The notes under the pieces: generated by a model
The model's database searches: none
What the model saw: only the letters and a program-made list of their open reading frames with translations
What the model was told of the DNA's origin: nothing
Made by a program: the position numbers and the translations under genes
From: Platanthera guangdongensis
Lineage: Eukaryota > Streptophyta > Magnoliopsida > Asparagales > Orchidaceae
Direction: 5' to 3'
DNA: 64,000 nucleotides
Assembly: GCA_039583875.1 (NCBI GenBank)
Contig: CM077149.1
Span: 20,907,194 to 20,971,193, forward strand
Shown: in pieces, positions 13,950-60,533 of the stretch
Layout of the letters: every line of letters starts with the position of its first letter
Numbering within the stretch: the first letter of the stretch is position 1

Positions 13950-13950
13950 T

Positions 13951-22842: not shown

Positions 22843-22844
22843 AG

Positions 22845-25755: not shown

Positions 25756-28700
25756 TGTAACATCCCATGTTACTTCTGGACCCCTCAACTTAGATTGGGT
25801 TAGGCATGGGGTGAGACTTAAGGAGATCAACTAGGTTTGACCCTAGGTAGTGGGTGGTAGCCATGTGGAGCCCACTATAGGACCAAGTCAAACTAGGTCA
25901 AACTAGCCTAATTAGGGACCCTAGCCACACCATGACCCCACCACATTGCCCTAACCCTAAAGACAATCTAAGTGGACCCTAAGGTATATCACTGGGTCAA
26001 CATTTTGACCCCAGTTGACCAAGGTCAACCTTGAGCTTAATTTGGTCAAACCCACACCCATATGCCTAATTAACCTAAGTGGGGCACCCCCTTGACCCAA
26101 ACCAAGTTGGGTGGTGCCACTAGACCTATTTCCACCAAGTAGGGTCAGTCCACCTACCATGGTTGACCAGTCAACCCTAAAAGTCAATTTGGTCAACAAA
26201 TTGACCTAAAGAGTGAAATGAAGGCCAAGCCATTTCCCATTGGACCAAGCCCACCAAAATTGGCCCATAGTCAGCCCAAGTGAACAAGACCAGTCCTACC
26301 CCTCTAAATCAGGAGAGAGATTACATGCAAGGGGGTAAAATTGGGATTTTTAGGAAAAGAGGAGAGAGAAAGGGGAATGAAGAAAATGGTGGCCACATGG
26401 CCACCCCATCAGTTGGTTTTGGCTGCCCAAAACCAGGTGGCCGACCTCCCCTCCTCATTTCCAGCAGAAAACCAGGGCTGTGAGCCACATGGCAGCTGGG
26501 TGAAACCTCCAAAGCTCAAAACCGAGCTAACATTGGAGTTAACTCCACATATAGCCCACCTCAGTCCAAACAGAGCTCACCATCAGCTTCAGGAGACAGA
26601 AAGGAGTGGAATTCGACTGCTTAATCATGGAGAATGGTGGAGATTTGAGTTTTCGGGGTGGAGCTCGCCGGCGCACCACCACCACGGCAAACCGCCGCCT
26701 GACCCGCAGCCAAGCTTCGATTCAGGTGCGTTTCACTTCACCTCTACCCGTACTAGCATCTTAGATCAAATAGGAGAGATATCGGGCTCAACTGAGCCCG
26801 ATGCCATGTGAGAAAAACGAGAAATTTCCAAGCTTTTGAAACCGCTTGGGATCGCCGTCGCCGCCGTCTCCCGCCGCCCCATCGCCGGGAAATGATAGCC
26901 ACCACCACCGTGAAGGTGATGGCACCGTTGGCCGGAGGTGGCGCCGTCTCAGCTGGCCGGAAACCGCCAGCAAAGTTGCTCCAGGTCGGCTCGATCTCAG
27001 CCGTTGGCTGGAGGTAGACGATGACCCGATTCCGTTGGATTTACTTTAAGATTCGTGCAACAGTTAAATGATTTAATTTAATTATTTGATGAATAGTGAA
27101 ATTCTGTCACACTTTTTCAGTCACTTTGCATGTTAAATATAGGCCTCTTAGAGGCATTTCCAGAACCTAGACCCTTAATGAAAAATGTAGCCAAGGGTCT
27201 TAACTTTAATATGCCACCCTAAAATATATTTTGGTGTAGTGTACAGTCCTGTAGGACATTTCTCCTAGGACTGGTCTTAGAGTAGGGCTGAAATTAAATT
27301 GGATGCCCAGGTCAAAATATTAGTCACCATGGCCCCAAATTTTGGGCACATGCATGGTTAGGGCATACTTAGCTCCTGCCAAAATTTAGGAATTTCTATA
27401 GAATAGTTTCCTATAGTTTTTGGTAAAATAGCAAAATATAATTAAATGACATATATGGAGTTCTACTCCTCCCCATGGCCCCAAATTTTGGTGGTGGGTC
27501 AGTGGCGTCATCCTTGGTGCATGATAAAATTTTCAGCACCTTGGGTTCACTGCATGTTGGAGAATCCACTTGCATGTATTAGCCTATGTTTAGCCTTGGT
27601 GTGCTAATAGCAAAAATGCAAATTGGTGTATTTAGCCCAATGGTGACATGCAAAGGTCATGGAATTATTTACAGTGGTTCATTAGGGTAAATTTCATCCC
27701 TCAAATTAATAATGGAATTTTTGGAAACAAAATTTCATTTATTGGAATTTATTTTAAATATAGCTATTTTGGAAATAAAATTGGAAAATAGGATTTCTTT
27801 AAGTACAAATCCAAACAATTTTGCCAAGGCATAGATGATGTCACATTTGACTTAGGAAAAATATGATTTCTCTGTTTTGAAGAACCTTTGGAGTAGATAC
27901 CCTAAATTCCCCATTTTACCCTTATTATGTTAATTCTTGAAATGATGGATATATACCTCTGAAAAATTTGGAATTTATTCTACTGCTATAAAATGTTATT
28001 ATTAGTTTTGCATAAATTTCTCAGAATTAATGGATGCACTGTTTGTTGTTAAATTAATACAATGGCATTTTGGTAAATAACTTATAATGGAATTTTATAG
28101 GCCATTTCACAATAAATGTTGATGATACTCTGCCAATAGTCATAAATTAGTGTCCTAAAACTTCTGTAAGTTTCCTGGAATTTTTGAGTACATAATGCCT
28201 ATACTTCATTTGGAAAATGGAATTTGTGTAGAATTGATGTTAAATAGGAAATGAGAATAAATAATTCATGGAAAATTATGAAACTCTGTAGGCAGCAATA
28301 TATTGTCAATATACATCTCAGGAAAAATTTTCTAGGTCAGTGGTTACTTAATCATACTACTTCATGTGTAAAGTGACCTAGCATTTAAATTAAAAGAATT
28401 AATTAAAGGACTATTTGGCCAAGAAAAATTATGAGAATTCTTAGGGTAGTTCCCTTAGTCCATAACACCTTAGGATAAATATTTAGAGGCAAGATGCCTT
28501 AAGGTTTGGAAGATCACATTTTTAGGGTAATCATAGGTCATGGTCTGCATATAACACAAATAGGTCTTGCCTTAGGGGTTACCAGGGGATTTGATTATCG
28601 GCAGAAGTAAGAGAGTTCAACATGAGTAACCCTGGTGGGTAGAGTTGCCTTAGTGAGGGATCAAAAGTGCAAGTCTTAGTTAGCAATTGGAATGGGGGTC

Positions 28701-30433
28701 GGCGGAAGACCGTCGGCATACTGGTAACACCTTAAGTCACTAGGGTTGTACTAAAGCAATAAGGAGAGCTGTGGAGATACTTGGGTAGCCATCAACTAAA
28801 ATAAATATCCTTGCGAAAGGGAACGCTGGGCGTAATCCCAACACAGTTCCTAGTGCCCCTTGAGATCCCTTCACAGGGAATACCGGGGGCAGTCCTGTGA
28901 TTAACCTTAAATCTCTAAGTATAATAAACCGTAGACAAGAGTAGTTTAATAGGTTAGGACATTGTTGTACCTTCTCGCCCGTGTGGGGGTTGGAGAGATT
29001 CATGATATATGCTCACCCATTTTGGGGTTTGAGGGAGTTGGCATAAAGGCACTAATGTGCGTTCTCACCCGGGTTTGGGTTTGAGGGATTCAGGACGGGT
29101 TTTGGTCCTGCGAGCGGAAGGCTCGGTATGAATTACTTGCATGTGCATAAATATCGTGGCGGGGCATGCGGTACTGGCCGTTCGTCACACTAATGGCAGT
29201 ACGGTGCACCAGGCGGTTGTGGGAGTTAGAGGGGCCAGTGGGTTATTTTACACTGCGGTCTGGAGGACGATCCCCGATAACACACATCCGACCCAACAAG
29301 ACTGACGGGTTTGTCAGCAAAGTACGTACGCGAGACTCTAGAGTGCACCTTGGACGTGTACAGAGGCGTATGAGAGGGGTCTAAGGCTTGGTAGTGTGTA
29401 TACCGGTCTAGAAGCGGAGACGCCCGCTCCGCTGCTGCCATAGCCACAGCGGTGGTACCCGAGAGTGATGCTAGCTCTCAAAAAGTGGGAACTAAAGGTC
29501 TGTGATCACAGAGTCGTTGTGTGTGAGTTGCACTTGCCTGCGCATAAAATTGCATCATATCATTCATTCATATTAGGTCATACGCTTCATAGATCCTTAT
29601 CATATAAATTAGTATGGGCTATTTTATATGATAAGTTAAATTTCCTGGAAATCCTAACTTATATATTTGTATGGGCATTTATATAAGTTAGGGTACGTTT
29701 GTGATGATAGCATAATGATAGCTTAGCTTATTTACTTGTTCATACTACTGTTCTCTTTACTTTCCTTTACTGCACTGCTCTTATTTACTACTTGTACTGT
29801 ACTTAGCATTGCTAGAGTAGGATTTCATTACTTATTACCACTCTAAATAGATATTGTCACCTGCTTCCACTTTGCTACCCCTTGTTGTCCTCCGCTTCGT
29901 CCTCCCGCTCGGTGCCTAGGAGCTGCGGGGCGAGGTGCGGAGGAAACGACTTAGTCTTTTTGACTAATGGTCGGTGACCAACTATTTTTAGGAGCCTGTG
30001 GAGATGGAGCACCAGCACGTCGAGGAGGCAGGATATGAGGAGCAGATACCGCTTCAGCAAGCTACTACCACTACTGTGCGTCCTCAGGTGGGACGAGATC
30101 TGATGTTCTAGCATAGCTTCTGCATTTATGATTTTGTGAGAGAGAGATTTTGATGTACTGGGCATAAGCCCTTTTTATTCTCTATTGTACTCTATTGTGG
30201 ACTATTGTACTATTCATTTCTTTTACATGATTGTACTGTGACTTGTGGACTGATGGTTTATATACAGTTTACTTCTTTCTTCTCATGTTGGCCTACAGGT
30301 TAATGATCGTACTAGCCGGCAGAATCGGCGTATTGCGGTGTCGACTAACCCGTGAGTTAGTGTCACCGTAAGACGGCGGTTCTGGGCATAAGATCTGGTA
30401 GCCCTCCTTGGTAAGGGGGAGGGGGGTCTTACA
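25756..30433 (+). repeat. Gypsy D 5' LTR
   Basis: It starts TGTAACATCCCATGTTAC, an inverted repeat (GTAACAT/ATGTTAC around CCC), and ends GGGTCTTACA. It holds a GC-rich stretch (26640-27010), a long AT-rich middle (27050-28500) and a moderately GC-rich later part (28900-29470). At 4.68 kb it is long, as in the Tekay lineage. Small open frames (26280-27049, 29166-29686 and others) recur in the 3' LTR only because the LTR is duplicated. Confidence 0.95.
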
Positions 30434-30436
30434 AAC

Positions 30437-30444
30437 TGGTATCA
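30437..30444 (+). other. Gypsy D primer-binding site (partial iMet match)
   Basis: TGGTATCA, three bases after the LTR end, matches the first eight bases of the iMet-type site, but the next bases (CTTGAAC) depart from AGAGC. It may be a short or degenerate primer site. Confidence 0.6.
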
Positions 30445-30616
30445 CTTGAACAACGATCATATGAGAAAGAAGTCCACAACATGGGACCACCCCCGCCCCA
30501 GCATTAGTTTGCGGACAAACTATGCAGCAGAAGCAGTGGTGTGCCCATGTGTAAAGTCACATAAATGGTCCACAAAGTACAATTTGTTAGGCCAATTTTG
30601 CTCTAACCTTACCTTT

Positions 30617-31744
30617 ATGCAACCTCCACAGGTCGCAGCGCCGCAAAATGTGACTCCTCCCCCTCCAGCTGCCACTCCATTCCTACATATGGAGATAGGG
30701 CAGACCCTGACGGCGATTTTGGATGCCTTTAGAGCCCAGCAAGTCCCGGCTCCACAGCCAAATCCGGGGTCGAGCTGGCTGAGTGCATTCAAGAGCCTGT
30801 CCCCACCGATGTACCGTGGGACAGAGGATGCGGTGAAGACGGAAGAATGGCTGGAGGCCATACACGAGATCTTAGCGGGCATCAGCTGCCCAGTCGGCCA
30901 GGCAGTACCTCTAGCCACCTCTGTTCTGGAGGCTCATGCAAAGAGATGGTGGAAATCAGTCCGGGAGTCTACTTATGCGGACTTTGAGCTGTCATAGATA
31001 TCTTGGGAGGAGTTTGGTGATGTGTTTCTGGAGCACTTCGTCTCTGCTACGGACAGAGATGCTTTGGAGGAGAGGTTTTTGAACCTCAAGCAGGGGACTA
31101 GATCAGTGATAGAGTACCAGAGAGAGTTCTCCCACTTGGCCAGATTCGCAGGGATTCAGGACACCGACGATAGGAGGTATGTGAAGAGGTTCTACCGGGG
31201 CCTCAGGGATGATTTGAGGCAGGCCTTGCTATTCATTTCTCATGGCACATCCAGGCAGATCATCGAGATGGTGAAGAAGCTGGAGGCTGACCAGCTGATG
31301 GTGCGAACCGGAGGGAAGAGACCATTTGATGGGTCGACATCAGGTGAGAGCAGTATGGGCTCTCAGAGAGGCAGGACCATCGGATACAGGAAGGGTGGGG
31401 GACGTCGTTGTCCCAACTTCAGGCCGAAGCAGGTACCTCCTCCAGCATTGGCTCCCCCACCTCTACAGATGCATGATCCAAGGAGACAGGATGACCGAGG
31501 CCATCGACAAGTGGTTTGTTACGGATGCCGCCAGCCCGGGCACATCAGGTCGGAGTGCCCGCACCGATTCCATCCCCCTCCTCCTCCTCCACCTCCAGTG
31601 GCCCCAGTACAGCAGGTCCGAGGACGAGGCCGAGGGCGAGGCCGAGGTCGGGGATATCACGGCAGGAGGCGCGAGCAGGAGCAGATATACGCCTTGGACC
31701 TCATAGAGCCGAGAAATCCCGAGGAGGTTATCACAGGTACTTGA
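30617..31744 (+). pseudogene. Gypsy D gag, one in-frame stop
   Basis: Capsid/nucleocapsid gene. I take ATG 30617 (MQPPQVAAPQN) as start because the preceding in-frame ATG at 30446 lies only 12 bases from the LTR and its leader does not look Gag-like; the choice is uncertain. Seen: the retrotransposon gag core (MYRGTEDAVKTEEWLEAI near 30810, WWKSVRES, EEFGDVFLEHFV, FLNLKQGTRSVIEYQREFSHLARF), then the zinc knuckle CYGCRQPGHIRSEC (31517-31558) and a Pro- and Arg/Gly-rich tail. A single TAG at 30995 sits where relatives usually have Trp, consistent with TGG to TAG. Without splicing it ends at TGA 31742. Confidence 0.88.
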
Positions 31745-31837
31745 AGTTAATTATGAATTTTCTTGGATTTTCAATGATATATATATAGTACCTGGAACTA
31801 TAGGATAACAATTAACTTTCACATAAACAAACCTCAG
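31737..31837 (+). other. Intron-like segment between gag and pol (D)
   Basis: 101 nt start GTACTTGAAG after ACAG and end AAACCTCAG before GTATAG. The segment is AT-rich against GC-rich flanks and has a branch-like ATTAAC 26 bases before the acceptor. It contains the gag stop (31742). Its length is not a multiple of three, and its removal places gag exactly in the pol frame, reaching the pol ATG codon at 31846 in phase. Introns inside gag-pol are known in Ogre gypsy elements; here it is inferred. Confidence 0.6.
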
Positions 31838-34800
31838 GTATAGTTATGATCAGCGGCAAGCCCGCTCATACTCTTTTCGACACGGGTGCTTCACACTCGT
31901 TCGTATCCGAGGCCTTCATCGACGGACTCGAAGGCGTGGAGAGGTTCCCTGGACTAGAGATGAGGGTACGTCTACCCGATGGGTCGGAGCTGCGGACCAC
32001 TGCACATTGCGATATGGAGGCCGAGATTGGCGGCAAGGCATTTGAGGCGCCGGCAACTATTCTGAAGCTGCAGGACTTTGATTTGATCTTGGGCATGGCC
32101 TGGTTGCATCGGAACCATGCCCAGATAGATTGCCCGTCCAGGAGGATCACGCTAAGACATGGCGACTCTCATGTTATCGTTGAAGGTATCCAGCCTATCT
32201 GCCACCTACTGTTATCTTCTATACAGGCTGTGAAGGCCCATGAGCAGGGTGAAGAAGTCTATATTGTCTGCTTCGAGATGGTGGGAACAGAGGCGACTAT
32301 CTCAGATATTCCGGTGGTCCGGGATTTCTCCGACGTATTCCCGGAGAAATTGCCCGGGCTACCGCCTGCTAGAGATTTGGATTTCAGGATTCAGCTAGTA
32401 CCGGGAGCGAAGCCGGTGTCCCGGGCACCCTACAGGATGGCTCCTAGGGAGTTAGCAGAGTTCAGGACTCAACTACAGGAGCTAGTCGAGTCAGGATTTG
32501 TGCGGCCTAGTTCATCGCCATGGGGAGCGCCAGTTCTCTTTGTGAAGAAGAAGGACGGATCACTGCGATTATGTATAGATTACCGGGAGCTGAACCGGTT
32601 GACGGTCCGCAACACCTATCCTCTACCTCGGATAGATGAGTTATTTGACCAGCTACAGGGAGCCTTCTGGTTCTCCAAGTTAGATCTGCGATCCGGCTAC
32701 TATCAGCTTCGTATCAGGGAAGAGGACATACCGAAGACGGCATTCAGTTCGCGCTATGGATTATACGAGTTCACGGTGATGCCTTTTGGACTCACGAATG
32801 CTCCTGCTGCATTCATGAGTCTAATGAACCGTGTATTCGAGCCTTTCTTAGACCGCTTCGTGATTGTGTTCATCGACGACATCCTTATATATTCTCGGAC
32901 TCAGGAGGAGCACACGGAGCACTTGGCACAGGTCTTGCAGAGGTTGAGGGAGACACAGATGTACGCAAAGTTTTCGAAGTGCCAGTTCTGGTTGCAGGAG
33001 GTGGCTTTCCTGGTACACACGATCAGTGGGGCTGGATTAGCAGTGGACCCAGCCAAGATAGAGACAGTGAGGGATTGGCCGCAGCCGAAGACCGCGTCTG
33101 ACATCCGCAGCTTCTTGGGACTAGCAGGCTATTACCGCAAGTTCGTGGAGGGGTTCTCGAGGATAGCTCTCCCCCTCACGTCCTTGACGAAGAAGGACAC
33201 AGATTTTGTTTGGTCAGAACGGTGTGAAATGGCTTTTCAGGAGCTGAAGGACCGACTCATCTCATCCCCCATTCTTGCGCTTCCATCCGGGAGCGAAGGA
33301 TTTCAGATCTACACGGACGCCTCTTACCAGGGGATGGGTGCAGTCCTGATGCAACATGGACACGTTATTGCTTATGCTTCGAGACAGTTGAAGAAGCATG
33401 AGCATAACTATCCAGTACATGATCTAGAGCTCGGGGCTGTGGTTTTCGCCCTAAAGATATGGAGGCATTACTTATATGGGATTCATTGTGACATCTTTTC
33501 AGATCACAAGAATCTCAAGTATATCGATACGCAGAAGGACCTAAACCTGAGACAGAGGAGGTGGCTGGAGTTCCTCTGTGATTATGATTACAAGATCCAC
33601 TATCACCCGGGGAAAGCGAACACGGTTGCGGATGCTTTGAGCAGGAGGGCCGGCACTTCTGGACCGGAGCCCCGATTGATGTCTATAGAGCTGCTACAGA
33701 TGATGGAGGACATGCACATTACAATGGTGTCCGAGACCGAGCCAGTTGTATATAGAGAGTATTTGAGCTCAGTGATCAGCGGCGATGATATACAGGAGCG
33801 CATCCGAGCACATCAGAGGCTGGATGCTGCGTTACAACTGATTTTCAGTGCCTTAGAGAGGGGCAAGGTCGAGGACTACATGCTACAGGATGATCTTCTT
33901 AGGTTTCGGGGGCGCATCTACATACCAGCAGGGGGCAGTATCCGGGAGGACATACTCAGAGAGGCACATTGCTCGAGATATTCAGTGCACCCCGGCATCA
34001 CCAAGATGTGGGCAGATTTGCGGAGGTCTATGTATTGGCCCGGGATGAAGAGGGAGATCACGGATTTTGTGACCCATTGCGAGACCTGCCAGCGTGTGAA
34101 GGCAGAATGCAAGAGCCCGGGAGGTTTACTACAGTCACTGCCAGTTCCAGAGTGGAAGTTCGAGGACATCGCTATGGACTTTGTACACGGGTTGCCTCGC
34201 TCCCACTCTGGGCATGATTCCATATGGGTTATAGTGGACAGATTGACCAAGGTAGCGCGGTTTTTTCCAATTCGAAAGGATGCCCCAGTTGCAATTCTGG
34301 TGAGACTATTTGTGGAGCAGTACGTCAGATATCATGGCGTCCCCAGGACTATTGTTTCGGATCGTGATGGTCGGTTCACCTCGAGCGAGTGGAGGGCCGT
34401 GCATGCTTACTTGGGATCTCGGCTTACCTTTAGTACCGCCTTCCACCCGCAGACCGACGGACAGACCGAGCGGACCATCCGGACTATGGAGGACCTGCTC
34501 AGACTATGCATATTGGATACAGGGAAGCCTTGGGAGAGGCTGCTGCCATTGATCGAGTTCTCGTATAATAACAGCCACCAGGCTAGCATCAGGATGACTC
34601 CATACGAGGCGCTTTATGGGAGGATATGCCGGACACCGCTATCATGGGTTCAGGATGTGGATACCAGGGCTCTGGGATCTGACTATATAGAGGACACTGA
34701 GGCTCAGATTCGATTGATCAGGGATCGGCTGCTGGAGGCCCAGAGCAGGCAGGCAAAGTATTATGATGCTCGGCACCGGAAGGTGGAGTTCCAGGTTGGA

Positions 34801-35238
34801 GATAGGGTATTCTTGAAGATACGTCCAGTACACGGTGTTTCTCGGGTGCGGAGGCACAAGAAGCTAAGTCCACGATACATGGGGCCCTACCTGATCCTGG
34901 AGCGGATCGGCCCCTTGGCTTACCGACTGCAGCTGCCACCGGAGTTGGGTGCATTACATGACGTCTTCCATGTCTCTTCCTTACGAAGAGCTCTCCTTCG
35001 GCCGGAGCAGCACATTACTACTATAGCCGGACCGGTAGAGCCTGACAGATCAGTGAGATTGGAGCCGATCCGGATTGACGATACAGCCGTCCGAGTGTTG
35101 CGGAAGAAGAAGGTCCCTCTTGTGAAGGTGCTGTGGTCCAACCATGGATGGGAGGAGCACACTTGGGAGCCGAGGGATCTGATGCTGGAGCAACACCCGG
35201 AGCTATTCGCATCAGGTACATTTAAGTTATGCCTTTAA
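31838..35238 (+). CDS. Gypsy D pol polyprotein (protease, RT, RNase H, integrase, chromodomain)
   Basis: Processes, copies and integrates the element. The frame is open to 35238; the first Met is at 31846 (1130 residues), but a spliced product would continue from gag. Residues counted from that Met: protease LFDTGASHS (Asp 12); RT with FIDD near 342; RNase H with [11 protein letters not shown] near 490 and a second Asp in FSDHKNLKY; integrase zinc region [10 protein letters not shown] to CETCQRVK (707-755); core AMDF (~775), SDRDGRF (~838) and QTERT (~874), fitting DD35E; C-terminal chromodomain-like [19 protein letters not shown] (~1088-1106). FIDD replaces the commoner YIDD/YVDD but keeps both Asp. 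Full usual length for the family. Confidence 0.95.
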
Positions 35239-35323
35239 AATTCTTGATGATTCTTGCAAATAGAACCCCGTAGACCCGAACTTAAATTTCGGGGACGAAA
35301 TTATTTTCTTGTTTATTGGAATT
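35239..35323 (+). other. Gypsy D 3' noncoding strip without a clear polypurine tract
   Basis: Between the pol stop and the 3' LTR start at 35324 lie the usual GGGGACGAAATT block and then TTTTCTTGTTTATTGGAATT. The bases next to the LTR are not a purine run, unlike gypsy-1 (2324-2336). Confidence 0.6.
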
Positions 35324-38300
35324 TGTAACATCCCATGTTACTTCTGGACCCCTCAACTTAGATTGGGTTAGGCATGGGGTGAGACTTAAGGAGATCAACT
35401 AGGTTTGACCCTAGGTAGTGGGTGGTAGCCATGTGGAGCCCACTATAGGACCAAGTCAAACTAGGTCAAACTAGCATAATTAGGGACCCTAGCCACACCA
35501 TGACCCCACTACATTGCCCTAACCCTAAAGACAATCTAAGTGGACCCTAAGGTATGTCACTGGGTCAACATTTTGACCCCAGTTGACCAAGGTCAACCTT
35601 GGGCTTAATTTGGTCAAACCCACACCCATAGTCCTAATTAACCTAAGTGGGGCACCCCCTTGACCCAAACCAAGTTGGGTGGTGCCACTAGACCTATTTC
35701 CACCAAGTAGGGTCAGTCCACCTACCATGGTTGACCAGTCAACCCTAAAAGTCAATTTGGTCAACAAATTGACCTAAAGAGTGAAATGAAGGCCAAGCCA
35801 TTTCCCCTTGGACCAAGCCCACCAAAATTGGCCCATAGTCAGCCCAAGTGAACAAGACCAGTCCTACCCCTCTAAATCAGGAGAGAGATTACATGCAAGG
35901 GGGTAAAATTGGGATTTTTAGGAAAAGAGGAGAGAGAAAGGGGAATGAAGAAAATGGTGGCCACATGGCCACCCCATCAGTTGGTTTTGGCTGCCCAAAA
36001 CCAGGTGGCCGACCTCCCCTCCTCATTTCCAGCAGAAAACTAGGGCTGTGAGCCACATGGCAGCTGGGTGAAACCTCCAAAGCTCAAAACCGAGCTAACA
36101 TTGGAGTTAACTCCACATATAGCCCACCTCAGTCCAAACAGAGCTCACCATCAGCTTCAGGAGACAGAAAGGAGTGGAATTCGACTGCTTAATCATGGAG
36201 AATGGTGGAGATTTGAGTTTTCGGGGTGGAGCTCGCCGGAGCACCACCACCACGGCAAACCGCCGCCTGACCCGCAGCCAAGCTTCGATTCAGGTGCGTT
36301 TCACTTCACCTCTACCCGTACTAGCATCTTAGATCAAATAGGAGAGATATCGGGCTCAACTGAGCCCGATGCCATGTGAGAAAAACGAGAAATTTCCAAG
36401 CTTTTGAAACCGCTCGGGATCGCCGTCGCCGCCGTCTCCCGCCGCCCCATCGCCGGGAAATGATAGCCACCACCACCGTGAAGGTGATGGCACCGTTGGC
36501 CGGAGGTGGCGCCGTCTCAGCTGGCCGGAAACCGCCAGCAAAGTTGCTCCAGGTCGGCTCGATCTCAGCCGTTGGCTGGATGTAGACGATGACCCGATTC
36601 CGTTGGATTTACTTTAAGATTCGTGCAACAGTTAAATGATTTAATTTAATTATTTGATGAATAGTGAAATTCTGTCACACTTTTTCAGTCACTTTGCATG
36701 TTAAATATAGGCCTCTTAGAGGCATTTACAGAACCTAGACCCTTAATGAAACATGTAGCCAAGGGTCTTAACTTTAAGATGCCACCCTAAAATTATATTT
36801 TGGTGTAGTGTACAGTCCTGTAGGACATTTCTCCTAGGACTGGTCCTAGAGTAGGGCTGAAATTAAATTGGATGCCCAGGTCAAAATATTAGTTACCATG
36901 GCCCCAAATTTTGGGCACATGCATGGTTAGGGCATACTTAGCTCCTGCCAAAAAGTAGGAATTTTTAGAGAATAGTTTCCTATCGTTTTTGGTAAAATAG
37001 CAAAATATAAATAAATGACATATATGGAGTTCTACTCCTCCCCATGGCCCCAAATTTTGGTGGTGGATCAGTGGGGTCATCCTTGGTGCATGATAAAATT
37101 TTCAGCACCTTGGGTTCACTGCATGTTGGAGAATCCACTTGCATGTATTAGCCTATGTTTAGCCTTGGTGTGCTAATAGCAAAAATGCAAATTGGTGTAT
37201 TTAGCCCAATGGTGACATGCAAAGGTCATGGAATTATTTACAGTGGTTCATTAGGGTAAATTCCATCCCTCAAATTAATAATGGAATTTTTGGAAACAAA
37301 ATTCCATTTATTGGAATTTATTTTAAATATAGCTATTTTGGAAATAAAATTGGAAAATAGGATTTCTTTAAGTACAAATCCAAACAATTTTGCCAAGGCA
37401 TATATGATGTCACATTTGACTTAGAAAAAATATGATTTCGCTGTTTTGAAGAACGTTTGGAGTAGATACCCTAAATTCCCCATTTTACCCTTATCTTGTT
37501 AATTCTTGAAATGATGGATATATACCTCTGAAAAATTTGGAATTTATTCTACTGCTATAAAATGTTATTATTAGTTTTGCATAAATTTCTTAGAATTAAT
37601 GGATGCACTGTTTGTTGTTAAATTAATACAATGGCATTTTGATAAATATCTTATAATGGAATTTTATAGGCCATTTCACAATAAATGTTGATGATACTCT
37701 GCCAATAGTCATAAATTAGTGTCCTAAAACTTCTGTAATTTTCCTGGAATTTGTGAGTACATAATGCCTATACTTCATTTGGAAAATGGAATTTGTGTGG
37801 AATTGATGTTAAATAGGAAATGAGAATAAATAATTTAAGGAAAATTATGAAACTCTGTAGGCAGCAATATATAGTCAATATACATCTCAGGAAAAATTTC
37901 CTAGGTCAGTGGTTACTTAATCATACTACTTCATGTGTAAAGTGACCTAGCATTTAAATTAAAAGAATTAATTAAAGGACTATTTGGCCAAGAAAAATTA
38001 TGAGAATTCTTAGGGTAGTTCCCTTAGTCCATAACACCTTAGGATAAATATTTAGAGGCAAGATGCCTTAAGGTTTGGAAGATCACATTTTTAGGGTAAT
38101 CATAGGTCATGGTCTGCATATAACACAAATAGGTCTTGCCTTAGGGGTTATCAGGGGATTTGATTATCGGCACAAGTAAGAGAGTTCAACATGAGTAACC
38201 CTGGTGGGTAGAGTTGCCTTAGTGAGGGAGCAAAAGTGCAAGTCTTAGTTAGCAATTGGAATGGGGGTCGGCGGAAGACCGTCGGCATCCCGGTAACACC

Positions 38301-40000
38301 TTAAGTCACTAGGGTTGTACTAAAGCAATAAGGAGAGCTGGGGAGATACTTGGGTAGCCATCAACTAAAATAAATATCCTTGCGAAAGGGAACGCTGGGC
38401 GTAATCCCAACACAGTTCCTAGTGCCCCTTGAGAGCCCTTCACAGGGAATACCGGGGGCAGTCCTGGGATTAACCTTAAATCTCTAAGTATAATAAACCG
38501 TAGACAAGAGTAGTTTAATAGGTTAGGACATTGTTGTACTTCTCGCCCGTGTGGGGGTTGGAGAGATTCATGATATATGCTCACCCGTTTTGGGGTTTGA
38601 GGGAGTTGGCATAAAGGCACTAATGTGCGTTCTCACCCGGGTTTGGGTTTGAGGGATTCAGGACGGGTTTTGGTCCTGCGAGCGGAAGGCTCGGTATGAA
38701 TTACTTGCATGTGCATAAATATCGTGGCGGGGCATGCGGTACTGGTCATTCGTCACACCGATGGCAGTAAGGTGCACCAGGCGGTTGTGGGAGTTAGAGG
38801 GGCCAGTGGGTTATTTTACACTGCGGTCTGGAGGACGATCCCCGATAACACACATCCGACCCAACAAGACTGACGGGTTTGTCAGCAAAGTACGTACGCG
38901 AGACTCTAGAGTGCACATTGATGTGTACAGAGGCGTATGAGAGGGGTCTAAGGCTTGGTAGTGTGTATACCGGTCTAGAAGCGGAGACGCCCGCTCCGCT
39001 GCTGCCGTAGCCACAGCGGTGGTACCCGAGAGTGATGCTAGCTCTCAAAAAGTGGGAACTAAAGGTCTGTGATCACAGAGTCATTGTGTGTGAGTTGCAC
39101 TTGCCTGCGCATAAAATTGCATCATATCATTCATTCATATTAGGTCATACGCTTCATAGATCCTTATCATATAAATTAGTATGGACTATTTTATATGATA
39201 AGTTAAATTTCCTGAAAATCCTAACTTATATATTTGTATGGGCATTTATATAAGTTAGGGTATGTTTGTGATGATAGAATAGTGATAGCTTAGCTTATTT
39301 ACTTGTTCATACTACTGTTCTCTTTACTTTCCTTTACTGCACTGCTCTTATTTACTACTTGTACTGTACTTAGCATTGCTAGAGTAGGATTTCATTACTT
39401 ATTACCACTCTAAATAGATATTGTCACCTGCTTCCACTTTGCTACCCCTTGTTGTCCTCCGCTTCGTCCTCCCGCTCGGTGCCTAGGAGCTGCGGGGCGA
39501 GGTGCGGAGGAAACGACTTAGTCTTTTTGACTAATGGTCGGTGACCAACTATTTTTAGGAGCCCGTGGAGATGGAGCACCAGCACGTCGAGGAGGCAGGA
39601 CATGAGGAGCAGATACCGCTTCAGCAGGCTACTACCACTACTGTGCGTCCTCAGGTGGGACGAGATCTGATGTTCTAGCATAGCTTCAGCATTTATGATT
39701 TTGTGAGAGAGAGATTTTGATGTACTGGGCATAAGCCCTTTTTACTCTCTATTGTACTCTATTGTGGACTATTGTACTATTCATTTCTTTTACATGATTG
39801 TACTGTGACTTGTGGACTGATGGTTTATATACAGTTTACTTCTTTCTTCTCATGTTGGCCTACAGGTTAATGATCGTACTAGCCGGCAGAATCGGCGTAT
39901 TGCGGTGTCGACTAACCCGTGAGTTAGTGTCACCGTAAGACGGCGGTTCTGGGCATAAGATCCGGTAGCCCTCCTTGGTAAGGGGGAGGGGGGTCTTACA
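35324..40000 (+). repeat. Gypsy D 3' LTR
   Basis: 4677 bp, matching the 5' LTR from TGTAACATCCCATG to GGGTCTTACA. Differences are mostly single substitutions (for example near 35511, 35555, 35605, 36042 and 36239). The target duplicate GTACA follows at 40001. No gene of its own. Confidence 0.95.
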
Positions 40001-40005
40001 GTACA

Positions 40006-42372
40006 GTGGTCAAAATAAGAAGTGATCATGGTACTGAATTCCAGTCTGACAGTATGACAAAGCTATGTGAAGAGTTTGGGATATTTCAGGAATTTTCTTC
40101 ACCAAGAACACCTCAGCAAAATGGTATTGCTGAAAGGAAAAATAGAACCTTGATTGAGGCTGGTAGAACCCTATTAAGTGACACATCTCTCCCTGAATAT
40201 TTCTGGGCTGAGGCAGTTAATACTGCATGTCATGTGATTAATAGGGCTACTATCACCAAAAGCCACAATAAGACCCCCTATGAGATTGTGAAAGGCAGAA
40301 AACCAAATCTATCCTATTTCAGGATCTTTGGTTGTAAATGTTATATACTTAACAATGGTAAGTCTTACTTAACCAAGTTTGCTGCCAAATCCCAAGAGGG
40401 GATCTTTGTTGGGTACAGCAACAACAGTAAGGCTTATAGGGTCTACAACTTGACTACTCAAGTTATAGAAGAATCAGTACATGTAGTGTTTGATGAAACT
40501 AGACTCATTAACAATGAATTGTCTAGAAGTGTTTGCAGCTCTACAGGTGTGACTGAGAAAATGGACAAGCTCACTATTGAAGAAGGTTCTACTGCATGTC
40601 AGCAAGTGGATGATAGTGGCTGTTGTCCAGGGGGAGTACTAGATGCACCTGATACAGAAGAAGACCAAGGAGTGCAGCAAGTTGAAGAAGTTGAAGGAGT
40701 ACAACCTGAAGACATGCTGCCTCCAGCAAATAGACATCTAAAAGATCATCCATCTAATCAAATTATTGGTGATCTCAGACAAGGGGTACAAACAAGGAGC
40801 AGAAATCTAAGTTCAGTACTCTACTCCAGTTTTCTATCCCAAGTAGAGCCAAAGAAATTTGAAGAAGCCATCCTAGATCCTCATTGGATTGAGGCTATGC
40901 AAGAGGAACTGAACCAGTTCAAAAGATGCAATGTCTGGGAGCTAGTTCCTAAACCAAAAGACCACAACATAATTAGAACTAAGTGGATCTTTAGGAACAA
41001 ACTGGATGAACATGGAGTTATTATAAAGAACAAAGCAAGACTGGTTGCAAAAGGTTATAGGCAGGAAGAAGGTATTGACTTTGATCAAACCTTTGCTCCA
41101 GTAGCCAGACTGGAAGCTATAAGGATGTTCCTGGCTTATGCAACCTATCAAGGGTTTAAAGTATACCAAATGGATGTTAAGTCAGCTTTTCTGAATGGAA
41201 ATATGAAGGAAGAAGTCTATGTGGAACAGCCATCAGGTTTTGTTGATTCAACTAAACCTAATTATGTTTATAGACTTAGGAAGGCATTGTATGGGTTAAA
41301 ACAAGCCCATAGGGCTTGGTATGAAACCCTGTCTAGTTTCCTCATTGAGAATAAATTCACAAGGGGGAAAATAGACAAGACTCTATTCCTTAGGCAATCC
41401 AGAGGCAAGATAATCTTAGTCCAAATATATGTAGAGGACATCATATTTAGGTCTACAGAAAGTGGCCTTTTCAGAAAGTTTGCAAAACTTATGCAAGGAC
41501 AATTTGAAATGAGCAGTATGGGGGAACTTTAGTTCTTCTTGGGTCTCCAAGTTAGACAGACTGAGAATGGTTTATCCATATGCCAGTCTAAGTTCACCCT
41601 AGAATTGATAAGGAAGTATGGTATGGAATCATCCAGTACCATGAAAACTCCTATGGGGTCAAGTATGTCTCTTAGCAAAGATGATGCAGGGAAACCTGTA
41701 GATGAGACTTTGTATAGAGGGATAGTTGGCTCCCTACTATATTTGACTGCTAGTAGACCAGATATCATGTATGCTACATGTGTCTCTGCTAGGTATCAAG
41801 CTTGCCCTAAAGAATTTCATTTGACAGCAGTCAAGAGAATTCTGAGATATCTTAAGGGCACTCCTTATTTAGGCCTTTGGTACCCTAGGAATGGAGACTT
41901 TGAACTGACAGGTTATTCAAATACAGATTTTGCAGGCTGCAAGGAAGATAAGAAAAGTACAACAGGTACCTGTCAATTCCTAGGTGGAAGACTGATATCA
42001 TGGAGTAGCAAGAAACAAACAAGTGTGGCTATCTCCACAGCAGAATCAGAGTATGTTGCTGCAGGAAGTTGCTGTGCTCAACTTCTATGGATACAACATC
42101 AGCATGAAGATTATGGTATTCAAGTAAGTAGAACAACTCTATTTTGTGATTCTACTAGTGCTATTTCTATTGCAAACAATGCTGTCTCCCATAGTAGGAC
42201 TAAGCACATAGAAATAAAATACTATTTTCTAAGAGAACATGTGGAAAAAGGAGATATTTCACTAGAATATATTAATACAGATAATCAGCTAGCTGACATG
42301 TATACTAAGCCATTAGATGAAACCAAATTCAATAAATTCAAAATTGAATTAGGTATGATAAACTTAGAATAG
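40006..42372 (+). pseudogene. Element C pol, 3' part (integrase, RT, RNase H)
   Basis: It continues the C integrase in frame: [11 protein letters not shown] (40012), [12 protein letters not shown] (40108), then RT ([30 protein letters not shown] near 41040) and RNase H ([13 protein letters not shown] near 42040, [12 protein letters not shown]), ending MINLE at 42372. The RT catalytic motif reads YVED (41428-41439), with Glu for the first Asp, and APRAWY is changed to AHRAWY. One TAG at 41530 replaces Lys. Otherwise the frame is open for 789 codons. Confidence 0.93.
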
Positions 42373-42401
42373 TTTACAAAAAAAAAATTGGCTAAGTAAA
42401 A

Positions 42402-42732
42402 AGGTGTCGACACACAGAGTTGTCTGTGTCGACACATAGAAGTGGTGTCGACATTTCAGAGAAATGGTGTCGACACATCTAGAAAGTCTGTGTCGACACT
42501 TCAGAGAATTAGTGTCGACACATGCAGAGTAGGTGTCGACACATCCAAGGTGGTGTCGACACTTAGGCTTTCCTTAGAATTAGTCTAGTAAAGTCTCAAC
42601 TAAGTGTCGAGCAAAGCGGTGTCGACACATAAACAAGTGTCGACACATATATTCTGTCGACTATACTTGTGTCGACACATTGTTGTCGAGACATTATAAG
42701 TAAGTGTCGACACTTTTCAACAGTGTCGACAC
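42402..42732 (+). repeat. Internal GTGTCGACAC array between pol and ORF3 (C)
   Basis: Twelve exact palindromes plus variants lie between the pol stop (42372) and the internal TATA box. Order and flanks match the A and F arrays (for example GGTGTCGACACATC and AGTGTCGACACATG). The array is not part of either LTR. Confidence 0.92.
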
Positions 42733-42778
42733 AATTTAAGTATTTTGACGCGCCCTTTCATCTTCGATTCTAGAAAGG

Positions 42779-42787
42779 TATAAATAG
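42779..42787 (+). promoter_or_regulatory. Putative internal TATA box for ORF3 (C)
   Basis: TATAAATAG in the context AGAAAGGTATAAATAG lies 107 bp before the ORF3 ATG at 42886, as in A and F (106 bp each). A short TTCGAGACC and GTGTC-containing leader follows in all three. Confidence 0.62.
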
Positions 42788-42885
42788 GTTTTCGCCATTG
42801 TTAGTCGACACGCTCACCAAAGTTTCGAGACCAAACTTGTGTGTCAACATCTCTCTTCTCTAAATTCAAATTTCTTCAAACCCTA

Positions 42886-45738
42886 ATGTCGCCCAAGCTA
42901 GAAGAGAATGTGAATGAAGGATATGAACTCGTGCGACATGCATTTGATGACGCGGAACCTGAGATCAAAGGCGTGATAACCCTAATAGCAGAGACTGGGT
43001 TAGAATTTCTTGTTTCAGAACCGATCAAGATCTGGAAGAAGGAGGTCCTGGAGTTTCTGAATGCAGCATCACTAGATGAGTCAGGACTTAAGATTAAGTC
43101 AAGAGTTCATGGGGCAAAGGTGAAGGTTTTTCCTAAGAGTTTGAGAAAGGTACTACAACTACCGAGGACAAAGGAAGAAGATGATGTTTCTGCTTCTAAG
43201 ACTAGAGAAGCATTGACATGGTGTGGTTTGGACTCCAACATGAAAATTGGATCTGTGTTCAATAGAAAGGGAATGAATATGAAAGGCAAATTCTTATCTG
43301 AAATTGTTGGCAAAGTCATCCTGAGCAAGCCTGGAGTCCATGACAGAATCTCAGCTCATATGTTTAGCCTCATGACAAGGATAATATTCAAACTAAATAC
43401 TGATTGGGCTGCAGTTATGTTTTATAAGATTAAATAAAGTATGAAGAAGCCAAATCTGGGTAGAATACTAAGTCTTTACCTAGCTGGCAGTATACCTGAG
43501 GTAATGAACCAAGCTGCAAGTTCAAAGATTAACCACATGAGGAAGATGGATATGAGAATCTTCTCTAGGTGGGACAGAGTATTAACCAAGGAAATGCCAA
43601 CTCCAGTAAAGGACACACCCCTGAAGAAGAAGAAGAAGACAGCCCCTGTGGCTCAAGAATCCTCAAGCAGCTCTGAAGAGCAAGTTGTTTTTACTCCTGA
43701 TGAGGAAGAGACTGGAAATGCTGGACAATCTCCAGCAAGACAAGAAGATGCAGAAAGGCAGGGGGAGCTACCACCAGCAAGCCCAATTCACTTGGATCCA
43801 CTCCAGGGGGAGCCCTTACTTGTGGAAGAGCCAACTCCACTAGAGAGTGAACAAGCTACCCACACAATACTTGAGCAAACACAAACACATAGCCAACCCC
43901 AGGATGTTGTCATGGAAGACACATCTGTTGCTGATCAAGTGGTTGATGAGATAAGAGATTCTCCAACCCTTCCTCAACAGGAATTTACCCTAGAAGAGCT
44001 ATTCCCAGACCTTCTACAAACTGACTTTGAGAGAGAAAAAGCTGTTGCTGGGGGGGAGAAAGTAATTATTGAGGGGGAGCATTTGGAGATTGAAGAAGAA
44101 ACTGCAGGCAAAGAGACTGAGAAGCCCAAGGATGCTGAGTAGGTTCCTAGGACTGACAAGGATTTACCTCCTAGCCAAAAGGAAAGAGTTGAAATAGCCA
44201 GCACATCTGCTTCAGAAGATGAAGAGGCTGCAAGAGCCAAGAAGAGGAAATTTCAAGTCTTCAAGAGGAGGAGCCAGACATATAAAAAGGCACTGCAAAC
44301 AATTGCTCCACAACCTGCCCCATCTACTGACTACAGTTCACTGATGGTGGCATTACAGATAAAGCTGGATGAGCACAGACAAGCTATAGAAAAGTATATA
44401 GATGAGGAGCATAAGTCATTGCAATTTGATCTGGCCCAAGACATCAAGTCAATCAGATTTGAAATGAATCTGAACAAGAAAGAAATGACTGACTGCTTTC
44501 ATAAGGGAGGAAATCCAGTAGTCTATCTGGCCACTCATCAGGAAAAGATCAAAACACAAGTAGGTGATATTACAGTGAAGCAAGGCTATGTCCTGGAGAA
44601 CCAGCTGAGAATGAATGATAATCTCACTGCTTCACACAATGCAATAGTAACAGAAATGAAGAATATAGCTACTGGTCAGACTACAGCAAGTGCTACAGCT
44701 AAGGAAGAATCTGATAAAGCCTTACAAGAAGGTATCACTGCTGTTACTTCTGCACTTCAAGATTCCCAGAAGTTAATAACTGAAAAGCTCCAAAGGTTGA
44801 AACCTTTCTACAAAGATGGAGTACATTATCTGAATGCACAGATAAGATTTCAAAAAGATGATCTTAGGGATCACATTGAAAGAGAAGTGATAAAGGGGGA
44901 GAGGGTGTTAGTTAAAGCCAGATCTGATCATGCCAAATGGATTTCAAATTCCATTAGAGCCACCCTTGGATATCCTCCATTATGTGATGATGACAATGTT
45001 GCAGAGTCTGGGATTAATCCTGCATATCTTGGAGGGGAGCAAGCTGAAGTGGCTCAAGTAATATACCCTCCACCAGACTTTGATATGATACATCAAGACA
45101 TACAATCAATGTATAGCCCTCCTGAGGGTATTCAGAAGGTCATCATAGAGAAAGTAGTTCAGCTAGTACCAGAGGCAATTCTGAAAGAACAAGAGGCCTT
45201 ATTAAAGGAACAAGAGACTCAATTGTCTAAGAAAAGATTCAGAGAGCAAGCTGAACTTAGGCCTGATTTTGAACAATGGAGCCCCACTTCCAGAAATATC
45301 ATCTTGACTGCATGGAAGGCTGCCAAGGATAATATCCAGGATAGAAACAAGTGGTATTCTGAACTGGAGTGGAGGAAGCATGAGAACAGGCAAGAGGCTA
45401 TTGTTCAATATAGAAGAAAGGCTAAGATGGGAAAGCTACCTCCTACAGCACAGGAGCCCAGCAAGTACTTTCCAAAGCCTTATCATTACTTTGAAAGGCA
45501 GAAGATCAAAGCTGAAGAATTGAAAAAGAAGGATCTTAAAGGAAAGAAGCCTGCTGCTGCTGATGATACTGAAGCCCCAGTCCAAGCAAAGATACAATCA
45601 GGAAAGGCCATTATGATCAAGGAGCCTGAGCAGCAATATGATAGAATTTTTCTTAAGTTTACTATGTGTAATCAATTGCATTCAACTTTCTGTAAACTTT
45701 TGAATAATGAAAATGTTGAAGTTGTTAGAACAATGTGA
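42886..45738 (+). pseudogene. Element C ORF3, long, two premature stops
   Basis: The ATG at 42886 opens MSPKLEENVNEGYELVRHAFDD. One frame holds to 45738, with TAA at 43435 (GAA to TAA) and TAG at 44140. Layout: conserved N-terminal half with KPNLGRILSLYLAGSIPEVM (43450-43510); Lys run and Ser/Glu/Pro-rich acidic middle; basic cluster KRKFQVFKRRSQTYKKALQ (44240-44300); a long helical, coiled-coil-like region (44340-44800); YPPLCDDD; a basic C-terminal part (WSPTSRNIILTAWKAAKD to KKDLKGKKP). The tail after EPEQQ extends past the stop used in A. No signal peptide or membrane span is visible. It stands where Sireviruses carry an 'env-like' ORF. Confidence 0.87.
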
Positions 45739-45903
45739 TATGTGTTAATTCTATTACATTATTGTTCTGAGATATTTGTGTATACATGTTTTGCTTATAC
45801 ATGTTTATGTACTTACCCTGTTATGTATTACTGTTTTACATCATACTGTGAATTTGTTATGTATGGTGTATATCATTGACTAAGGGTTATGACTTCTCCA
45901 AAT
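45739..45903 (+). other. Element C 3' untranslated region
   Basis: AT-rich sequence ending in the conserved GACTAAGGGTTATGACTTCTCC block, the same as before the A 3' LTR. No gene seen. Confidence 0.7.
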
Positions 45904-45912
45904 AGGGGGAGA
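45904..45912 (+). other. Element C polypurine tract
   Basis: AGGGGGAGA, one base before the 3' LTR start at 45914. Confidence 0.88.
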
Positions 45913-45913
45913 T

Positions 45914-47852
45914 TGTTAGGTACATTGGAAAATATGTACCTGATTTGAAGAAGCCTCACCCTACTCAATGATATACATCAAGGTGTATTTGATGTATTTT
46001 GAGTTACCTTGTGCAGGTTAAGTAATTGCAGGGAAAGCATGAAAAGTTTCTAAGTCAATGTGTCGACAACCAGAAGAAAAGTGTCCACACTTAAGAAGAC
46101 TTGTGTCAAAACCCAGAGAAGCTTTGTCGACACTTGGAGTGATTGTGTCGACACCAGGAATGCAGAGTCGACACCAGAAGGAAAGTGTCGACACATACGG
46201 GCTGTGTCGACACTCAATGAAGAAATGTCCAGAGAAGCTGTGTCGACACTTAAAAGCAGTATCAACACCCAGAGGAACTTTGTCGACATCAGAAAGTGTC
46301 GACACTAGGAGGCTGTGTCGACACTAAACAAAAGTTCAACAAAGTTCAAGTACAAGTGTCGACACTAGGAGGCTGTGTCGACACTCAGCAAACTTCAACA
46401 GAGTTTAAGTATAAGTGTCGACATAATGAAAAATGTGTCGACACACAGCAAAAGTCTTAACACATGAAGAAAGTGTCGACATTAGGAAGATGTGTCGACA
46501 CTCAGCAAATTTCAATAAAGTCTAAGTACAAGTGTCGACACAAAGGAGATGTGTCGACACTCAGCAAAAGTATCAACACAGAAGGCTTGTGTCGACACTA
46601 AGAAAATGTGTCGACACTTAGCAAGTATCAACACAAGAAGATGTGTCGACACAAAGGAGTTGTGTCAACAATTACAAGAAATCAACTAAGTACTGAAGAA
46701 CAAGGAGTTGTGTCGACACACAATATCAGTGTCGACACATTCTGGAGAAGCAGTGTCGAGAAGTAATTTCTACAACACAAGAAGTTGTGTCGACACCATG
46801 AAGGCTAGTGTCGACACTTAGTCTACTTGTGTCGACACTTGGTCTATAAGTGTCGACACTTAAAGACTGACTGTCTCGACACTTTCAGACAGTTACAAAA
46901 AATTCAAGAAGTGACTGGATGACTTGACAGCTGCCATTCCAGCCGGTCTACTGCAACTGTCAGAGCTGTCAGAAAGTTGTTAGGAACCGGATCAGCCGGT
47001 CACCATGAGGAAAGTCTATATAAAGGCTTATACATTCAACAGATAAGAAGAGTTGGAAATCAACAAAGTGAAGAACAATACAACTAGAAGAAGACCTTCA
47101 AGTGACGATCTAAGAAGTTGGAGAGAGAGAGCTCCTTCCAAGAAGACAGCTGTTGAACCAGGCTGTGAAGAAAAGATTCAGATTGAGATCTGATTCTTAA
47201 AGTCAGTAGTGATTGAAGATTAGCTGCATAGAGACTCAACCCTACTGTGTTCTAAATTCAAGAAGCTTTGAAGGAAGCCAAGGGAGGTTGATCTCAGCAA
47301 AGTTCTTCCAAGAACTCATCAAGAAACCTATCAACTCTTCTCTCTTATTCTGAGTTGAGGGTATATACATTGTAATTTTAATTTCTTGTAGGATCCTTAG
47401 AGATCTGAGTTGTAAGCCTGAAATTATAAAGGCTGAGTGGTAGGGCCTGTGTGCCTGAGTGTAGGAGATTCATTTCTCTGAGTGTAGGCCTTGTTGAGGG
47501 CTGAGTGTAGGCCTTATTGAAGGCTGAGTGTAGGTCTTTGTGAAGACTGAGTGGTAGGGCATTGAGCCTGAGTTGTAGGAACCTGTTTGGGGTTCTGAGT
47601 GTAAGATCTGAGGATCTGAGGAATAATGGAGGAGTTTGGCCGAATCTAGTACATACTAGATAGACGAAGGGGGAAAGTGGATGTACCCAGACCTTGGGGA
47701 ACCACTATAAACTGTGTGTACTCTGTGTGTGAATGATTCTGTGGTTGCTGTTTTATGTTCTGTGAATTCTGTGATTTATTCTGCCTAAAAGTTTAAACAG
47801 ATTAAGGTCACCTATTCACCCCCCTCTAGGTGATTAGGTACAATTTCTTTCA
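45914..47852 (+). repeat. Element C 3' LTR
   Basis: 1939 bp, starting TGTTAGGTACATTGG and ending TTTCTTTCA, followed by GTGCC. It contains a palindrome array (46059-46882), TATATAAAG at 47017 and CTGAGTGTAGG repeats. In this copy more palindromes near its start have decayed (GTGTCCACAC, GTGTCAAAAC) than in the 5' LTR. Confidence 0.94.
46059..46882 (+). repeat. U3 array of GTGTCGACAC palindromes (C, 3' LTR)
   Basis: Same units and order as 21044-21866. Several of the first units carry substitutions in the palindrome; the rest are intact. Confidence 0.92.
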
Positions 47853-48414
47853 GTGCCTTCAAGGTAGAACATGAGGAGATTCAAATGTACCATCATGGAC
47901 CATTTAAGTTTGGTGCACCTTCTCCAACACTCAAGAATAAGGCAGTTACCTGTTCTCAGGATCTCTCAACCCAAAATCAGACAAGGGGCAAGTTTGTCAG
48001 CAAGCCAGACTTGGGCATATCTGAGGCGATCAAGAGTATGTTTTCTGAAAAGAAGACTACTACTAGTAGGGCTCAAGATATTACAAGTACTTCTACTGCC
48101 AAACATGTCCCAAGTCAGACTGTGGGTGGAAGATACAAGAAAAAGGTTGTTGATGTACCTTCTAGACTGAGAGCTGCTAACATCACTTGTACAAGACTAG
48201 CTCTTAAAAGAATGCACAATATTTATGAGTGTTGGTGCTGTGGCAATGTGGGCCAATATGCTATAGATTGCTGGCACAATACAAGTGTGCTTAAAGTAAG
48301 AGATATCTTACCTGTCAAAAGAGTTGCAGGTAGGCATGATTATTATCCAACTAACATGTAGCTAGGATCTTATAAGAATTGGGGTACTAAGGTTAACTGA
48401 TTTATGCCTTTTAG
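47853..48414 (+). pseudogene. Element B gag, 3' part, with intron-like end
   Basis: Continues B gag after insertion C (GTGCC duplicate at 47853-47857). It shows a Lys/Ser-rich stretch and the second knuckle CWCCGNVGQYAIDC (near 48229), in which the zinc-binding His is replaced by Gln. The segment 48296-48414 (119 nt) begins AAA/GTAAGA and ends GCCTTTTAG/GTTAGT, at the same place as the GT...AG segments of C and F. A TGA lies inside it. Because 119 is not a multiple of three, only its removal would keep gag and pol in one frame. Confidence 0.78.
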
Positions 48415-60490: not shown

Positions 60491-60533
60491 TTAAGTTAGT
60501 TAACCCGTCTTTTCATCTTCAAACCTAGAAAGG

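Follow-up and report, generated by a model that had tools for sequence, protein, structure and literature searches.

The window analysed here, a 64,000-nt stretch of the 4.25-Gb genome of the orchid Platanthera guangdongensis (contig positions 20907194-20971193), contains three mutually related long terminal repeat (LTR) retrotransposons, designated A, C and F (Table 1). In each of them, the end of pol is separated from a third open reading frame (ORF3) by a gap of about 500 nt, which holds an array of the 10-nt palindrome GTGTCGACAC followed by the TATA block GAAAGGTATAAATAG. The arrangement given for this gap in the preliminary description, 12-13 palindromes, then GAAAGGTATAAATAG and the ORF3 ATG 106-107 nt further on, was reproduced in its coordinates and motifs in A, C and F. 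Judged from the sequence, the gap is probably best explained as an internal promoter that drives ORF3.

Exact copies of GTGTCGACAC number 187 in the whole window and zero in 100 dinucleotide shuffles, and in the array of C nine of the 12 start-to-start steps (one mismatch allowed) measured 18-23 nt. The last internal palindrome lies 45-46 nt from the TATA. TATAAATAG starts at 10766 in A, 42779 in C and 60534 in F and is followed by the ORF3 ATG after 106 nt (10872), 107 nt (42886) and 106 nt (60640), respectively. The string GGTATAAATAG occurs exactly three times in the window, once per pol-ORF3 gap. The longest runs identical in the three gaps were the degenerate palindrome TGTCGAGACATTATAAGT (18 nt), palindromes plus flanking bases (up to 17 nt) and AGAAAGGTATAAATAG (16 nt), and further runs were TGGCTAAGTAAAA just past pol (13 nt) and GTCGACACGCT and AGTAAAGTCTC (11 nt each). 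GTCGACACGCT spans 25-35 nt past the first T of the TATA, and plant transcription starts about 30 nt from the TATA. The predicted leader contains AAAGTTTCGAGACC in A, C and F alike. As in RNA polymerase II promoters, the distances from the TATA to the conserved start region and to the ORF are nearly fixed. The end of the leader at the ORF3 start (10864-10874 in A and 42878-42888 in C) reads AAACCCTAATG, which we take to be a telo-box-like string.

Table 1. Features of the window (positions counted from its first nucleotide).
Feature	Position	Strand	Remarks
Element A	2960..16003	+	LTRs 2960-5018 and 13951-16003, 96.2% identical
Palindrome array, A 5′ LTR	3107..4035	+	32 exact GTGTCGACAC; then TATAAATAG at 4169
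Internal palindrome array, copy A	10395..10720	+	12 exact GTGTCGACAC
TATA block GAAAGGTATAAATAG, copy A	10760..10774	+	
ORF3, copy A	10872..13656	+	Frame-broken
Element C	20898..47855	+	LTRs 20898-22846 and 45914-47855, 97.3% identical
Gypsy element nested in C	25756-40000		Splits element C
pol end, copy C	41539..42372	+	Gene preceding the gap
Internal palindrome array, copy C	42404..42732	+	12 exact GTGTCGACAC
TATA block GAAAGGTATAAATAG, copy C	42773..42787	+	Inside a 16-nt run that A, C and F share unchanged
GTCGACACGCT, predicted start-site block	42804..42814	+	11 nt, unchanged between A, C and F
Predicted 5′ leader of ORF3 mRNA, copy C	42808..42885	+	No ATG; holds AAAGTTTCGAGACC
ORF3, copy C	42886..45738	+	Interrupted; open pieces 42886-43437, 43441-44142 and 44344-45738
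Element F	from 52653		Likeness to other copies stops soon after 62970; 3′ end outside window
Internal palindrome array, copy F	60159..60487	+	13 exact GTGTCGACAC before the TATA; 14th at 60596-60605 in the leader
TATA block GAAAGGTATAAATAG, copy F	60528..60542	+	
ORF3, copy F	60640..62969	+	Frame-broken close to its start

The arrays in the LTRs are longer and consist of the same decamer, with 21-33 exact copies each. The preliminary description had called the layout of the LTR the same as that of the gap. This holds for the order, an array and then a TATA, but not for the distance, which was 133-134 nt from the last palindrome (one mismatch allowed) to the TATA in the A and F LTRs, against the 45-46 nt found internally. 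It also fails for the TATA string of element C, both LTRs of which carry TATATAAAG instead of the TATAAATAG of the A and F LTRs. Among helical periods of 10.0, 10.5 and 11.0, the palindrome gaps of the LTRs fitted best at 10.0, and the internal gaps gave no clear winner.

To see how common the arrangement is, we searched the genome with the pol-end pattern (up to three mismatches), which occurred at 6,762 places (3,400 + 3,362; control, 0). Seventy of the 100 places listed were sampled irrespective of intactness, 63 of them on contig C1. The preliminary description had named absence of the array and TATA from most intact copies as evidence against a promoter; in the sample, 68 of the 70 copies carried at least three exact palindromes downstream of pol and 65 a TATA block (two mismatches or fewer), with an exact TATAAATAG in 56. 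The ORF3 start was kept in 63 copies, and the TATA-to-ATG distance was 105-108 nt wherever both were present. An exact TATAAATAG lying 30-31 nt from the leader block AAAGTTTCGAGACC was found at 13,694 places in the genome (6,863 + 6,831), and the reversed-pattern control gave none. Two exact palindromes at a 21-nt step occurred at 294,920 places (reversed control, 0), making the decamer a dominant feature of this genome.

Palindromes changed more slowly than the spacers between them. The three pairs of A, C and F gave palindrome differences of 0, 0.8 and 0.8%, against 20, 21 and 25% for spacers, 23, 23 and 33% for pol third positions and 13, 22 and 23% for leaders, and none of the 15 positions of the TATA block differed in any pair. 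With site classes defined from C, A and F differed at 1 of 119 palindrome and 51 of 243 spacer positions (Fisher P = 5e-9); for the TATA block (0 of 15), the comparison with spacers gave P = 0.047, and P = 0.007 when identity across the three copies was scored. We then compared C with its 29 best other matches in the genome, a set picked by similarity, which lowers the rates of all classes. Differences at non-CpG and CpG sites were 0.8 and 1.9% in palindromes, 4.3 and 5.6% in spacers and 3.8 and 1.7% in the leader, and the TATA block differed at 0.9% (P = 9e-5 against spacers). A third set of 67 copies comprised A, C, F and 64 of the 70 sampled copies, after L043, L066, L067, L084, L085 and L089 were left out for a broken gap or a missing ORF3 start. 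Its mean pairwise diversity was 0.031 in palindromes, 0.040 in the TATA block, 0.116 in the leader, 0.123 in spacers and 0.137 at pol third positions (palindromes against spacers, P = 2e-8). The per-base diversity of GTCGACACGCT was also low in these 67 copies, beside a more variable stretch, and this block may act as an initiator. For palindromes the contrast is strong outside CpG sites and mild within them; for the TATA it is real though based on 15 positions. The slower change that the preliminary description proposed to look for in both was found, strongly for the palindromes and less strongly for the TATA.

The gap was closed in all three reading frames in 67 of 67 copies, which argues against stop-codon suppression; this route, or a frameshift fusion of ORF3 to pol, is unlikely. 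The leader stretch (42808-42885 in C numbering) was free of ATG in 64 of the 67 copies, compared with only five for the arrays upstream, and the ORF3 start codon was ATG in 65. Open pieces of ORF3 (three C-F comparisons and one A-F) gave ratios of nonsynonymous to synonymous substitution rates (dN/dS) of 0.07-0.16, the C-F pieces 0.07-0.15, similar to the 0.07 and 0.16 of two pol pieces. Because dS was near or above 1 (0.99-1.51), the ORF3 ratios are rough, and the open pieces look to be under purifying selection. Third positions of ORF3 (42886-43437 compared with F from 60640 and A from 10872) differed by 39-61%, as against 23-33% in pol and 20-25% in spacers; ORF3 may evolve faster or may have been exchanged between lineages.

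The start of ORF3 in C resembles the Pfam family PF20167 (Transposase_32) only weakly, scoring 22.2 bits where the Pfam cut-off is 45, and four related proteins scored 20-39 bits. A hydropathy scan of the open pieces of ORF3 in C and, beyond its start, in F detected no transmembrane segment, the highest 19-residue value being 1.33; the usual threshold is 1.6. Two related gene models exceeded it, P0002 with 1.79 (residue 712) and P0003 with 1.97 (residue 885), the P0002 peak falling, by eye, past its ORF3-like part. The pieces tested gave no support to ORF3 as a membrane protein and, together with the weak likeness to PF20167, do not support an 'envelope' label. From 24,535 genome candidates for PF20167, 150 matches were scored and the regions upstream of six strong ORFs (L105-L110) were scanned. 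GTGTCGACAC was present in 0 of these six, indicating that such ORFs do not in general come with the array, and their sole TATA[AT]A[AT] strings were over 500 nt upstream of the ORF start, within AT-rich stretches. The L105 upstream region resembles, by eye, the integrase end of a Gypsy element, and a related third ORF may be common to Copia and Gypsy elements whose upstream regions differ.

A second species offered a further view of the gap. Among the seven ORF3 homologues found, the P. zijinensis gene model P0005 runs from reverse transcriptase into ORF3 and carries, from residue 245, GINR, VDTLT, SR, CVD and MAPK in this order. In the copies of the window family, the frame GGT ATA AAT AGG encodes GINR, and the later blocks match P0005 at equal spacing; counted per residue, the matches extended to 59-67 of the 67 rows for GINR, 61-66 for VDTL, 62-63 for SR and 53-56 for CVD. 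The frame that reads through TATA and leader agreed with P0005 at a mean of 13.6 of 28 residues, and the other frames at 3.3 and 3.2. When the TATA residues were excluded, C still matched at 9 of 24 residues, a level above the maximum of 7 reached in 2,000 shuffles. The P0005 protein puts the TATA 109 nt from the ATG, and the gene model appears to imply the same TATA-leader layout in P. zijinensis. ORF3 sequence is also present in the public P. zijinensis gene models P0001 and P0003, under the names of host genes (polyamine oxidase 3, bHLH110).

As we picture it, the pol-ORF3 gap would be an RNA polymerase II promoter producing a separate subgenomic sense mRNA for ORF3, with a start site used near 42810 and an end presumably in the 3′ LTR. 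It could be activated by the factor bound at the LTR array, possibly an auxin response factor (ARF) of the ETTIN/ARF3 type, and the level or timing of ORF3 might in this way be set apart from that of Gag-Pol. Alternatively, ORF3 could be translated from a spliced RNA started in the LTR, as predicted for BAGY2 and Athila, with the gap array otherwise employed. This is not likely in our judgment, although passages of PMC2829016 and PMC7264820 report or predict splicing for other plant env-like genes. AG dinucleotides were indeed kept in many rows of the gap (that at 42458 in 97% of the 67), and the leader AGs AAAG and CGAG of AAAGTTTCGAGACC are common to A, C and F. As a class, however, AGs were not better kept than several other dinucleotides (mean 0.71; AC 0.86, CT 0.79), and neither AAAG nor CGAG shows the pyrimidine-CAG or -TAG sequence typical of splice acceptors. 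Splicing to the front of the array would put ATGs ahead of ORF3 in most copies, since 62 of the 67 arrays hold at least one, and splicing does not account for the conserved TATA.

The other explanations fare worse. If the array enhanced the LTR promoter, were a target of silencing and small interfering RNAs or formed an RNA structure, the TATA would be incidental. The identity of the decamer with the LTR motif and its abundance in the genome fit such roles, but the constrained TATA block and its nearly fixed distance to the ATG do not, and silencing would not be expected to keep palindromes at about one-fifth (29 copies) to one-quarter (67 copies) of the non-CpG spacer rate; we hold this family of explanations to be quite improbable. 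A relic or founder effect, in which the gap seems conserved merely through the youth of its copies, gains from the mutual closeness and low overall diversity of many sampled copies. It is very hard to reconcile with A, C and F, where spacers, pol third positions and leaders have diverged by 20-25, 23-33 and 13-23%, respectively, yet palindromes and TATA hardly differ. Least credible of all, to the point of being negligible, is a nested or captured LTR fragment: the decamer is the same and its spacing similar, but exact matches between the C gap and the four tested LTRs reached 15-18 nt at most, the 10-nt palindrome included. This agrees with the earlier statement that gap and LTR spacers are unlike and, with the different TATA spacing, rules out a nested solo LTR.

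Several observations besides the conserved AGs weigh against an internal promoter. A passage of PMC7264820 has env-like genes transcribed from the 5′ LTR promoter. The constraint on the TATA was only moderately significant in the smaller tests (P = 0.036 against spacers in the 67 copies, besides the A-F and three-way values of 0.047 and 0.007), and the best TATA window ranked only 37th among the 494 10-nt windows of the gap in the 67 copies. The TTTCATCTTC block just upstream (42756-42767) ranked above it, at 5th to 7th. At CpG sites, palindromes were only mildly better kept than spacers (0.061 compared with 0.088 in the 67 copies), and an absence of upstream ATGs from A, C and F alone would arise in 11% of shuffles. 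The evidence from P0005 is a reading back from a protein model through degenerate codons.

All three elements are Ty1/copia Sireviruses. They carry gag, integrase and RVT_2 domains in the Copia order, which in F are Retrotran_gag_2 at 54922-56127, rve/SH3 at 57766-58542 and RVT_2 at 58576-60132. At the junction of 5′ LTR and primer binding site (PBS), A (5052) and C (22845) carry TGGTATCAGAGC, and F has one mismatch to it; we take these to be the Sirevirus letters of this conserved junction. Several polypurine tracts (PPTs) of sequence AGGGGGAG are present: past pol, they lie at 12108, 12919 and 13942 in A and at 43761, 43806, 44052, 44073, 44895 and 45905 in C, the last of each series being the terminal tract that adjoins the 3′ LTR. 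Close to the 3′ end of the LTR, the polyC-rich integrase signal reads CACCCCCCCCCTCTAGGTG in the 5′ LTRs of A and F and CCCCCTCTAGGTG in both LTRs of C; the A 3′ LTR has an aberrant end. Copia order, PBS junction, multiple PPTs and polyC signal are given as Sirevirus features in PMC2829016. Also present are palindromes in the LTR and again ahead of the third gene, as in the repeated palindromic motif (RM) boxes of Sireviruses, which precede an env-like gene wherever there is one. The CGG-CCG core of RM boxes is absent from GTGTCGACAC; it is not needed for membership, because Tnd-1, listed in the same RM table of PMC2829016, likewise lacks it.

An internal promoter is not a new kind of proposal for such elements, because Bousios et al. 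(2010; PMC2829016) described the Sirevirus palindromes, both those of the LTR and those that precede the env-like gene, and put forward, with support, the hypothesis that they mark an internal promoter. Table 3 of that paper lists 12 and 13 palindromes before ENV in Osr10 and Barbara, and its text states that the promoter could not be conclusively identified. The present family resembles the RM arrangement in its high-copy short palindromes, which stand upstream of the TATA in the LTR and again upstream of the third gene. It departs from that arrangement in lacking the CGG-CCG core, the closest listed motif by eye being Vitis CGGTCGACCG with a shared GTCGAC, and goes beyond the 2010 survey in that a constrained TATA and a start-region block are located. 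What is new here is this TATA/start-region anatomy, the evidence of constraint and the lead to ARF3 (ETTIN). Foamy viruses, the precedent offered in the preliminary description, have a second promoter inside env, before the accessory genes; they are unrelated animal retroviruses, and the likeness in having an internal second promoter is an analogy only.

They are not the closest precedent, because the Sirevirus hypothesis (PMC2829016) and a gene with its own promoter in the maize element Grande (PMC7264820) are already in print. The latter paper, citing Gomez-Orte et al. (2013), describes the antisense gene23 of Grande as transcribed from its own promoter. Like gene23, ORF3 is an accessory gene between pol and the 3′ LTR with a promoter of its own, here predicted; unlike gene23, which is antisense and reported to be transcribed, it lies in sense orientation in a Copia family. 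Stop-codon suppression and an internal promoter are both named as expression routes in PMC3414828. SIRE1, which also has its third gene between pol and the 3′ LTR, has a single stop codon between pol and env (PMC2829016), in contrast to the gap of the present family. Searches of the open literature on internal promoters, subgenomic RNA and transcription starts of Sireviruses gave, by titles and opening lines of abstracts among the entries listed, no paper that maps a promoter of this kind. A search for the bare decamer returned, among the matches listed, no plant retrotransposon paper by title. The earlier prediction of an ORF3 promoter sharing sites with the LTR is partly supported, by anatomy, constraint and presence in nearly all sampled copies, and its background needed completing.

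The expression of a gapped third gene in Sireviruses has been a question since at least 2002, according to PMC2829016. The present family is an unusually well-resolved case of the arrangement described there: over 13,000 copies share a single layout of TATA and leader, whose TATA, start region and leader can each be placed to the base, and the family adds a concrete candidate regulator. ETTIN/ARF3 is a lead in this respect because the palindrome TGTCGACA is reported as a secondary motif of ETTIN (ARF3) in PMC6918188, which cites Franco-Zorrilla et al. (2014). Each promoter carries 12-33 of these TGTCGACA sites, and the start site predicted for the internal one overlaps a near-copy. We speculate, with considerable reserve, that the element is a two-promoter retrotransposon whose LTR and ORF3 promoters form one regulon of an ETTIN/ARF3-type factor; if so, the hundreds of thousands of TGTCGACA sites could titrate the ARF in the host genome.

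The window has some further features. The Gypsy element nested in C has 4.68-kb LTRs that are 98.4% identical, and its chromodomain match is below the cut-off. A 28-nt stretch, ATAGGGTTTTAAATCCCTCATTTCTCTT, lies before the 5′ LTR of A (2930-2957) and is repeated after its 3′ LTR (16008-16035). This repeat is much longer than the 5-nt duplication at C (GTGCC), and the 3′ LTR of A lacks the usual LTR end. Past the end of similarity to F, at 63190-63760, about ten CTCGACGAA-like motifs surround about nine TGTCGACAC motifs (counted by eye), possibly representing a further family with motif arrays.

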